From contig JALSKD010000139.1 of the NCBI GenBank assembly GCA_026989015.1, positions 1 to 56,491 on the forward strand: a stretch of 56,491 nucleotides of DNA, in the 5' to 3' direction. Of the stretch, positions 35,691 through 37,491 are shown piece by piece. The notes below the pieces were generated by a model. The model saw only the letters and a program-made list of their open reading frames with translations, searched no databases and was not told where the DNA came from. The position numbers and the translations under genes were made by a program. The DNA is from Gammaproteobacteria bacterium (GTDB lineage Bacteria; Pseudomonadota; Gammaproteobacteria; GCA-001735895). Position 1 is the first letter of the stretch, and the number at the start of each line of letters is the position of its first letter.

Positions 35691-36482
35691 ATGAGGCTGC
35701 ATTACCTGCTGTTTGGTGCCACGCTGATTCTCTCACCCATGTTGCAGGCCGCCGAATGGTGGCTTTCGATACAACCCGTGCTTTCTCCGGAGCGCATCAA
35801 AAAGGCCTACGCGCCGCTGGCGGAGTACCTGAGCCGACAGACCGGTGAAACCATACGGATCAAGACCCATCGCAATTTCCTCACCTATTGGGCAAGCATG
35901 CAGAAGATGGATGGCTTCGATTTCGTGCTCGATGCCGCGCATTTCACCGATTTTCGGCTGCAACACATGAATTACCACCTGCTGGCGCGTCTTCCGGATA
36001 CGGTAAGCTTTTCGCTGGTGACCCGGGATGACAACCTGGTCTTCGATACGCAAGAACTCCTGCTGAAGAAGATCGCCACTCTGGCACCGCCCAGCGTGGG
36101 CGCGTTGCGGATGCTGCAGCTGTTCCCGGATCCGATGCGCCAACCGCGCATAGTCTATGCGCGTGATTCGGAGGATGCCGCGGAAAAGGTGATACAGGGC
36201 AAGGCCTTCGCCGCGATGATCCCTTCGGCTCTGGTATCCCGTTATGACCGGCTGAACACGGTGTTGACCACCGCCCCCCTGCCGCACATGGGGTTCTCTG
36301 CGTCACCCGAGGTGCCCCAGAAACTGCGTCTGAGCGTCGGTCAGGCGCTGTTGCGGGCGAGCCTGACGCCGGCCGGGCAGAAGATGCTGAATCGGCTGAA
36401 CCTGCCCCCCTTCATGCCGGCCAAGGCTTCGGACTATCGTGGCTATGCGCGACTGCTGGACATCATGCCCCGGTTCTATTAA
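35691..36482 (+). CDS. PhnD-like periplasmic substrate-binding protein
   Basis: A 263-residue secreted protein (signal LLFGATLILSPMLQA, cut near AAEWW) with a PhnD/phosphonate-binding type fold: QPVLSPERIKKAYAPLAEYLS at the start and MLQLFPDPMRQPRIVYARDSEDA in the second lobe. Start at 35691 has a GAGGAG site; upstream codons to 35565 look non-coding. No permease or ATPase genes accompany it, so it probably acts as a sensor component rather than a transporter part, perhaps with the divergent PilJ-type proteins. The stop codon lies within an inverted repeat arm. 35454-35690 holds no other gene. Confidence 0.7.
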   Translation: MRLHYLLFGATLILSPMLQAAEWWLSIQPVLSPERIKKAYAPLAEYLSRQTGETIRIKTHRNFLTYWASMQKMDGFDFVLDAAHFTDFRLQHMNYHLLARLPDTVSFSLVTRDDNLVFDTQELLLKKIATLAPPSVGALRMLQLFPDPMRQPRIVYARDSEDAAEKVIQGKAFAAMIPSALVSRYDRLNTVLTTAPLPHMGFSASPEVPQKLRLSVGQALLRASLTPAGQKMLNRLNLPPFMPAKASDYRGYARLLDIMPRFY

Positions 36483-36808
36483 CCCGGCAAGTATCTACAT
36501 CGTGTTCAGCCCGCTCGCGCTCGTTCGCGGCAAGGCATCGGTGCGCCGCTGCAGTCATTCTGCAGCCAGCGCCGATAACGCCGTCCGCGGGCAAGCACGA
36601 GCGGGCCTCGCTCTTGTGTTTTCAATAGGTTAGGGGCTTCAAGAATGAACCGGCTCGGTGTTGCCCGCAGGGATGCGGGCAAGGGGCGAGAGCAGGATGC
36701 GTTAAGCTTTGCGGCGCTTGCCAAGGGAATGACCCTTGCCTGCACGCCGTGCCTTGATCCGGCCCATTCTTGAAGCCCTGAATACGACGTAGATACTTGC
36801 CGGGTTAA
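36479..36808. repeat. nested palindromic non-coding element (about 330 bp)
   Basis: Outer arms 36479-36509 and 36778-36808 are inverted repeats of 31 nt with two mismatches (TTAACCCGGCAAGTATCTAC core, 20 nt perfect). Inside, GGGCTTCAAGAATG (36630-36643) pairs with CATTCTTGAAGCCC (36765-36778), and an imperfect hairpin around CTGCAG / CTGCAG lies near 36550-36580. No open frame of credible coding appears. The left arm covers the stop codon of the PhnD-like gene. It could be a MITE-like or REP-type mobile element, or a structured RNA. Confidence 0.75.
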
Positions 36809-36885
36809 TATGTCTTTGCGGGAGCGTGGGAATATCTGGCTATCGATGGATAGAATGCGGCCCAATCAACAGACGGAGGCAGGCC

Positions 36886-37491
36886 ATGAGCACTGAACAG
36901 CTGAAGCGGGTGATCGCGATGATCGATGACATCAACCGCGAGGACCCAAACATCGAAACCGATGAAAGCGGCAAGGAATGGCCGAAGGAGCTGCTGTATT
37001 CCGAGCGCATGACCGACATGCTGCACCGCTATGTCGAAAACCCGGATGAAGTGGCGGAGATCGCCATGCGTGGCCAGCATGTGGCCCGCTGGGAATCACC
37101 GCGCAGTGAGTACCCTGAAGGCCGGCAGGGCTATCTTCAATGGCGCAGCCATCTCTACAAGTTCCACGCCAACACGGTCGGCGAACTGATGGAGCAGGCA
37201 GGTTACGACGCGGAAAGCATCGATCGGGTAAAGAAGGCCGTGGGCAAGCGCGGCATCAAGGTCAACCCCGACACCCAGCTGCTCGAAGACGTGACCGATC
37301 TGGTGTTCATTGAGCACTACATGCTGCCCTTTGCGGAAAAACACCCGGAGTATTCGGAAGAAAAGTGGATCGACATCATCCAGAAGACCTGGAAAAAGAT
37401 GTCGGAGCAGGGGCAGCAGTTTGCCCTGTCCGGCAAGATCCGCCTCCCCGAGCCGTTGGTGCCGCTGATTCAAAAGGCGCTGGGTGGCTGA
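36886..37491 (+). CDS. DUF4202 family protein
   Basis: A 201-residue cytoplasmic protein without a signal or membrane segment. Family-like segments are DINREDPNIETDESGKEWPKE-type N terminus and LVFIEHYMLPFAEKHPEYSE in the C-terminal half. DUF4202 proteins occur in many proteobacteria and have no established function. ATG 36886 has an ACGGAGG site. It is followed immediately by a convergent gene end at 37492 and does not belong to an obvious operon. Confidence 0.75.
   Translation: MSTEQLKRVIAMIDDINREDPNIETDESGKEWPKELLYSERMTDMLHRYVENPDEVAEIAMRGQHVARWESPRSEYPEGRQGYLQWRSHLYKFHANTVGELMEQAGYDAESIDRVKKAVGKRGIKVNPDTQLLEDVTDLVFIEHYMLPFAEKHPEYSEEKWIDIIQKTWKKMSEQGQQFALSGKIRLPEPLVPLIQKALGG

Follow-up and report, generated by a model that had tools for sequence, protein, structure and literature searches.

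At positions 36479 to 36808 of the window, by which we mean the whole 56,491-nucleotide stretch of DNA analyzed here, a palindromic element of 330 bp lies at the 3' end of a PhnD-like gene. An earlier note, made from the letters of this DNA alone, had offered two readings of the element, as a MITE-like insertion or as a structured RNA, and had named a single copy without covariation as the outcome that would refute it. The locus raises the question of which reading applies. Our analysis supports both together. The best explanation, to which we assign a probability of roughly 70%, is that a TA-targeting, nonautonomous MITE-like element carries an inverted pair of RNA hairpins; the binding of a host factor by these hairpins, which forms part of this explanation, is inferred.

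Results

Architecture of the element

The features of the element and its surroundings are collected in Table 1. The nested arms that had been described by eye were confirmed: the outer 31-nt inverted arms are complementary at 29 of 31 positions, and the inner 14-nt arms (36634-36647 and 36765-36778) are complementary at all 14. The nested fold of the 330 nt has a predicted energy of -200.2 kcal/mol, compared with a mean of -132.6 kcal/mol for shuffled sequences (standard deviation, 5.0; z, -13.5), and none of 100 shuffles folded equally well. The single central hairpin of the earlier description had to be replaced by two main hairpins. Hairpin 2 holds a 48-nt block (TTGCCCGC-AGGGAT-GCGGGCAA...), which the outermost part of K core 2 overlaps, and in other lineages blocks of 36 and 51 to 52 nt are found at different places of the same half. 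Stretches in three genomes (G044, G016, and G036) align to the block part of the element only, and the 48-nt block may therefore be a second small mobile repeat.

Table 1. Coordinates of the element, its parts, and the flanking genes in the window
Feature	Position	Strand	Basis
PhnD-like (phosphonate-binding family) gene; present stop from insertion	35691..36482	+	Pfam PF12974, E 1.4e-22
TA flank, left (putative target duplication)	36477..36478		TA flanks of own copies
Left terminal inverted repeat; TTAA supplies the stop codon of the PhnD-like gene	36479..36509	+	
Hairpin 1 (outer stem 36509-36531 / 36583-36606)	36509..36606	+	Consensus fold of alignment A1
K core 1, sense on + strand	36523..36592	+	A3 covariation; R2 match, E 1e-15
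Linker joining hairpins 1 and 2	36607..36632		
Hairpin 2 (outer stem 36633-36656 / 36756-36779)	36633..36779	-	Consensus fold of alignment A1
48-nt hairpin block	36661..36708		Alignment of own copies; in 5 of 13 full copies
K core 2, inverted copy of K, sense on - strand	36695..36764	-	R2 match, E 7.1e-9
Right terminal inverted repeat	36778..36808	-	
TA flank, right	36809..36810		15 of 15 own copies having the right end
Downstream gene, syntenic in G004 without an intervening element	36886..37491	+	

Copies and target sites

The search for further copies that the earlier note had proposed recovered 13 copies of full length, together with 5 fragments, in the genome. Five full-length copies measure 329 to 330 bp (contigs C139, C110, C33, C105, and C88), and the other eight, which are without the 48-nt block, measure 281 to 282 bp. 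TA accounts for 1.75% of the dinucleotides of the window; it follows the right end in all 15 own copies that have one and lies before the left end in 12 of 14 copies. Among the 13 full copies, TA flanks both ends in 11 and one end only in the remaining 2. No base-exact empty insertion site was found.

Matches to the element were obtained in 20 of 57 genomes searched, the genome of the window included, and a pattern scan of named genomes gave at least 115 stretches, the matches listed being from Sedimenticola, Candidatus Thiodiazotropha, Thiohalobacter, the Olavius algarvensis Gamma 3 endosymbiont, Thiotrichales, Chromatiales, and Gammaproteobacteria. TA was present on both sides of 60 of the 82 distinct elements of 130 to 446 bp and missing from at least one side of the other 22. 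Among the fetched loci, 100 distinct stretches with paired ends were counted, with size clusters at 30 to 36, 208, 241 to 242, 279 to 282, and 329 to 332 bp; a few longer stretches (740, 964, and 1,053 bp) may have been paired by chance. The element is short and multicopy, has terminal inverted repeats, and holds no transposase gene, and in these respects it fits a bacterial MITE; the TA flanks are a putative target-site duplication.

Micro-palindromes of about 30 to 36 bp, formed by two terminal repeats back to back, were also observed, several of them in G021 and others elsewhere (L055 513-545, L056 479-511 and 550-581, L059 497-529, and L062 481-513). Of 14 distinct paired-end stretches shorter than 60 bp, 11 have TA on both sides.

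The insertion and its neighborhood

The left arm includes, as had been claimed, the TAA of the PhnD-like gene, and this TAA closes the reading frame. Both genes flanking the element are on the + strand. An orthologue of the PhnD-like gene with a similar C terminus is present in G004, a genome without an element match in the 57-genome search, and the stop-to-start distance of the gene pair is 130 nt there versus 403 nt in the window. Inspection by eye leads us to infer that the PhnD-like frame would be 13 codons longer without the insertion, if one TA is kept.

Other own copies also lie close to genes. The first TTAA of the copy on contig C33 (G000:C33:3761-4089) closes a 328-codon open reading frame, as in the window (only stop-to-stop open reading frames were considered). 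The copy on contig C110 (L009 1296-1625) lies next to a tRNA-Thr gene (1631-1706, - strand), five bases beyond its 3' end. A promoter scan of window positions 36300 to 37000 gave no promoter-like site, and a terminator scan of the same interval gave one terminator-like site, with 0.6 expected.

A putative partner transposon with the same ends

A relative, G021, contains a complete 1,100-bp transposon bounded by TA-TTAACCCGGCAAT...ATTGCCGGGTTAA-TA. Its 344-residue product has DDE_3 and helix-turn-helix domains (Pfam E 1.7e-38); from these domains we take the transposase to be of the IS630 type. The terminal 14 bases, TATTAACCCGGCAA, are common to element and transposon, and the ends that the two have in common read TA-TTAACCCGGCAA. 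Of 40 genomes, 7 gave protein matches to the transposase, several of these matches being partial or distant. In the genome of the window, the right end of the transposon occurs twice, both times at a contig end and each time with the last 32 transposase codons, which encode residues 78% identical to the G021 protein. The assembly thus holds right ends only of the putative partner, the transposon body being unassembled; contig breaks at both right ends are as expected of a multicopy transposon. The further, RUP-like criterion of ends in common with an IS630-type transposon in the genome is met, with this restriction to right ends in the own genome.

No twin core of the kind described below was seen in the transposon ends read (the whole transposon was not aligned). 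Because only about the outer 12 nt plus the TA are shared, the element does not look, from the transposon parts read, like a simple deletion derivative. Taken together, the copies, the 31-nt terminal repeats, the mostly TA flanks, and a transposon with the same ends identify a MITE-like element, in agreement with the first of the two readings. That this IS630-type transposase mobilizes the element in trans is an inference made without transposition data, and we consider it likely.

A covarying hairpin, K, in both halves

Both inner hairpins contain, in inverted orientation, a motif of about 70 nt that we call K. Its parts follow in the order outer stem, CAAGGC, stem A of 7 to 8 bp, GC(C/A), stem B with a 5-nt loop, AA, stem A', AAC(G/A)C, and outer stem; the left core has this order, and so does the right core when it is read on the other strand. 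K is predicted to fold into an outer stem, an unpaired CAAG with a short GC/GC helix and an AAC bulge, the 7- to 8-bp stem A, a 3x2 internal loop, and stem B with its 5-nt loop. The unpaired bases of CAAGGC and AACGC are nearly invariant.

Four of the alignments were composed as follows: A1, 21 of 25 representatives of 54 elements of 270 to 350 bp (L037, L168, L171, and L115 were excluded as rearranged or divergent); A3, 20 of the 21 left cores (L051 was left out for an insertion); A4, 13 of the 21 right cores (7 with blocks and L073 were left out); and A5, 37 hand-picked cores. The covariance check that had been suggested, made on 21 full-length elements from several genomes, found compensatory changes in 57 of 94 predicted pairs. 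The element is both multicopy and covarying, and the refuting outcome did not arise.

In the left core (A3; 20 sequences, 70 nt), 97.3% of cells are paired, 14 of 25 pairs of K core 1 show two-sided change, and none of 500 shuffles was as good on both paired cells and two-sided pair changes. Stem A of the right core (A4) is 100% paired with two-sided change in 6 of 7 pairs; the right structure as a whole is less convincing (76.9% paired), its outer stem having been placed one column off, and the 36% pairing of that stem reflects the misplacement only. In A3, A5, and A6, K cores are 92 to 97% paired with covariation of 0.45 to 0.77 versus 0.18 to 0.22 in shuffles, and sliding the partners by 1 to 3 columns lowers pairing to 25 to 52%. 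In the model R2, which was built from 37 cores of two element families, 93.8% of cells pair, with a covariation of 0.772 versus 0.219 shuffled. Shuffles were not beaten on every measure: 90, 67, and 141 of 500 had as many pairs with two-sided change in A4, A5, and A6, respectively, and 247 of 500 had as many pair types in A4.

Pairwise alignment of the left and right halves was mostly not significant (no more than 15 of 300 shuffles were as good in 3 of 14 elements), and models and conserved loops were therefore used to assess homology. A model of the left half only found the right half in 4 of 15 same-family elements at E ≤ 1 (E 1.7e-6 to 6.7e-5) and gave weak matches to the reverse complement of 4 left halves. 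As this result is modest, the homology of the halves rests mainly on the shared unpaired bases and on the second family described below. The R2 match to K core 2 was obtained with a model whose training included right halves of other elements.

The regular spacing of these conserved bases could also be taken as a sign of coding for short basic peptides. From the start of the AAG in CAAGGC to the start of the AAC in AACGC, the distance is 45 nt, which is divisible by 3, in 18 of the 20 left cores and in all 13 right cores, and the block types, judged by core lengths, are of 48, 36, and 51 nt, with one of 52 nt (L119). However, one-base insertions or deletions occur between the AAG and AAC points (L203 and L119 in A3; L051), and an in-frame stop lies within the window's own block. 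Translations of the window element and related elements were without a Pfam match at E ≤ 10 in nine of ten cases, and the tenth had only a sub-threshold match (E 0.14). Mechanically called open reading frames span the window element, and none is transposase sized. A coding role was rejected on the indels, the stop, and the lack of a Pfam match above the cutoff; the absence of a credible coding frame asserted in the earlier note is borne out, and we regard a peptide product as very improbable.

Selection on RNA or on DNA

Every G.T mismatch in a double-stranded palindrome reads as A.C on the opposite strand, and selection at the DNA level predicts equal numbers of the two. On the K-sense strand, stems A and B of 124 cores have 113 G.U and 11 A.C cells, and the excess is similar in the 72 rows of less than 85% identity (68 G.U versus 6 A.C). 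Mismatches of other kinds number 120 in 1,736 cells; a single position of stem B accounts for 55 of them, all T.C. The excess is present in both halves of 52 twin elements, each on its own strand, with 50 G.U versus 4 A.C for the 5' K (+ strand) and 47 versus 4 for the 3' K (- strand), and a MAFFT alignment that was not fitted to the model gave 32 versus 3. The terminal repeats of 52 elements are symmetric (41:44). These counts are not phylogenetically independent, and the main point is the contrast inside the same elements. The outer arms adjoining K (122 hairpins) give 200:42, of which constant U.G pairs make up part. When mostly-G.U pairs were omitted from the 21-row alignment, the counts were 11:11 for the left outer stem, 14:11 for the right outer stem (K-sense), 11:4 for the left inner stems, and 14:8 for the terminal repeats. 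As the outer stem shows no clear bias in this alignment, selection on RNA is less well supported there than in stems A and B. Folding of single cores was stronger in the K sense than in the complement for the window left core (z -5.7 versus -3.6), the window right core (-2.4 versus -1.2), and the right core of L264 (-3.2 versus -0.6).

The G.U excess in the K stems, set against the symmetric terminal repeats, points to selection on single-stranded RNA, from opposite strands in the two halves. The second reading of the earlier note, a structured RNA, is upheld by compensatory change together with this strand asymmetry, and although there are no transcript data we infer that K probably has a function at the RNA level.

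Two other explanations of the hairpins have to be weighed against these numbers. In an ordinary fold-back MITE, the hairpins would merely have arisen through inverted duplication and would serve no function. MITEs typically have inverted repeats, the element is multicopy with mostly TA flanks, and the terminal repeats, without strand bias, behave as this explanation requires. The inner stems do not: they show compensatory change, G.U exceeds A.C by 10:1 in the K stems, the unpaired bases are invariant, and the same core is found inside elements with unlike ends. This explanation is already disfavored, and we consider it improbable. Alternatively, the hairpins might act as DNA, in cruciform or single-stranded form, and be recognized in transposition or by a structure-binding protein; long palindromes can extrude, and the core travels with mobile ends. 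A cruciform should show no G.T/A.C bias because both strands are present, yet the K stems stand at 113:11 and the terminal repeats at 41:44. We find a DNA-level role no more probable than the fold-back explanation, although a strand-specific mechanism acting on single-stranded DNA is not excluded.

One core, many ends

The left-only model matched 15 of 40 genomes, the own genome included, and it found both members of seven inverted pairs in G001, G013, G014, G019, and G024, spaced 98 to 106 nt start to start (E 7e-9 to 0.01). These pairs form the second family, whose elements are mostly 268 to 270 bp where both ends were found and whose ends, TAGTGCTCTTTCAA..., are unlike TTAACCCGGC. The second end of the G019 element was not seen, the locus stopping at a contig end. 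A search for a partner of the second family gave no end pair at transposon spacing among 28 sites in two genomes and no sites in a third.

At E ≤ 1e-4, R2 matched 110 of the 369 genomes sampled from the class, in 87 of 272 genera, and, at the level of the phylum, 62 of 299 genomes; 35 of these 62 lie outside the class, 33 of the 35 within a single family. The class and phylum samples overlap, with the own genome counted in both. Since scoring was limited to 13 or 16 candidates per genome, copy numbers are at least those counted; the weakest matches may be false, and the E values of the model are rough, having had a short calibration. The ends of twin-K elements differ widely (for example, TTACTAAGACAAACG, TAGGGAAGCGTTGAGCG, and TAGTGTACTGCGCC). 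Among neighboring K pairs from 66 sources, 52 of 55 are convergent, and 45 of these 52 are spaced 103 to 105 or 122 to 125 nt start to start. Two divergent pairs are grouping errors at three-hit loci (L276 and L153), where the next hit gives a convergent pair; one pair lies on the same strand, and 14 K hits are unpaired. One of the unpaired hits, in L284 (around 1501-1570), is the single K hairpin of a long and nearly perfect palindrome whose ends are TAGTAC, possibly a monomer form of the twin element.

Twin-K elements of other genomes have partial plasmid matches (21 to 60% of the query) in Azotobacter, Pseudomonas, Halomonas, and Burkholderia, and one matches a Variovorax plasmid record over 94% of the query. 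R2 detected paired K motifs in Variovorax (E 3e-10 and 4e-5) and in Halomonas (E 1e-10 and 0.002) and a single K in Azotobacter (E 1e-14). The lack of an annotated feature at such sites says little because the records of two of the three extracted plasmid stretches hardly have gene tables. In searches with other queries, blastn of the window element against plasmids was negative, as were searches with a second-family element against plasmids and phages and with another twin-K element against phages.

Comparison with known RNA and element families

Rfam searches at the gathering score over 20 loci returned only a tRNA and an SRP RNA, neither of which lies in an element; at E ≤ 1, five loci yielded a single match, outside the element, and the window element and two related elements at E ≤ 10 gave weak matches only (best E 0.16). 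Rfam 15 has no relevant match for the K elements. These results bear on the possibility that K is a self-cleaving ribozyme or other catalytic RNA, which two internal loops with invariant bases beside a short covarying helix, and occurrence in mobile elements, would suit. However, no ribozyme family is among the matches of the three elements at E ≤ 10, and the matches of the twister-sister model are below threshold and outside the element copies; a catalytic K seems to us quite unlikely. A resemblance to the twister-sister ribozyme (RF02681) was not supported: the four sub-threshold matches in the genome (E 3 to 6) include none in element copies, and sub-threshold matches occurred in 8 of 14 genomes in a control. 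A literature search limited to titles and the beginnings of abstracts, with subscription journals mostly outside its scope, gave no description of the K motif.

Several published elements resemble the present one in part, as far as can be judged from sources of which only portions were available. RUP, the repeat unit of pneumococcus, is with IS630-Spn1 similarly small, nonautonomous, and TA targeting with IS630-family ends; it is 107 bp long with a 9-bp terminal inverted repeat and, in the available part of the review, is without any other signature of structure or function (PMC2229807), whereas the window element has a conserved twin RNA motif across many genera. The Correia or nemis elements of Neisseria likewise have TA termini, terminal inverted repeats, and folded transcripts (PMC2229807, PMC10969869), which are reported to be cleaved by RNase III, at the terminal repeats according to PMC10969869; in the window element, by contrast, the selected RNA part is the inner hairpin pair with its internal loops. 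CIR of Caulobacter and Brucella also has two long hairpin arms with a linker and a conserved RNA structure but is about 110 bp long, has GANTC at a loop, and has no terminal inverted repeat recorded in the table consulted (PMC2229807). QMITE1 of Coxiella burnetii, a palindromic gammaproteobacterial MITE of 300 to 400 bp that overlaps several gene 3' ends and is described as a source of small RNAs detected by RNA-seq, differs in its variable 2- to 4-bp direct repeats and an IHF site (PMC5896051). The MITEs of Candidatus Thiomargarita nelsonii, multicopy with large hairpins in a sulfur-oxidizing host, have TATA ends that were compared with IS630, but one lies inside a group I intron, and the portion of the article available mentions no motif conserved across genera (PMC4853749). 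By these partial sources, the RUP-like mode (TA flanks and IS630 ends) and a part for MITE hairpins in RNA processing, as in Correia/nemis, are known already. Distinct here is a covarying inverted RNA pair common to elements with unlike ends in many genera.

Discussion

We propose that an IS630-type transposase would recognize the shared ends TA-TTAACCCGGCAA and move the element in trans, and that the core would be an inverted pair of one conserved RNA hairpin, K. Since the K sense lies on opposite strands of the two halves, read-through either way would expose one K; when a neighboring gene is read through the element in either direction, that K may fold in the transcript. The folded K would then bind a conserved host RNA-binding or processing factor, with the invariant CAAGGC and AACGC making contact. 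Such binding might make the insertion tolerable, or the transcript might be stabilized or processed, and the element would persist. The binding of a host factor by K on read-through transcripts, although the role that we favor for K over the alternatives, is the weakest part of this scheme; it is inferred without transcript or binding data, and we hold it to be doubtful though possible. Somewhat less doubtful, although still short of an even chance, is our proposal that K is an undescribed and widespread RNA class of Pseudomonadota, spread by transposable elements mostly as an inverted pair, with a core that outlives the ends.

MITE hairpins are easily dismissed as by-products of inverted repeats, and the elements described here hold their own control in the symmetric terminal repeats. 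K matches are common and include named replicons of Variovorax, Halomonas, and Azotobacter, so that cultured species can be used to test directly whether an RNA device indifferent to orientation is carried by a transposable element, and which host factor is involved. If the proposal is true, the inverted pair would let K work in either landing orientation. Lineages would swap their terminal repeats, or let them drift, so as to match different transposases, and would retain the RNA pair, through a conserved factor acting in processing, antitermination, or translation, or through catalysis.
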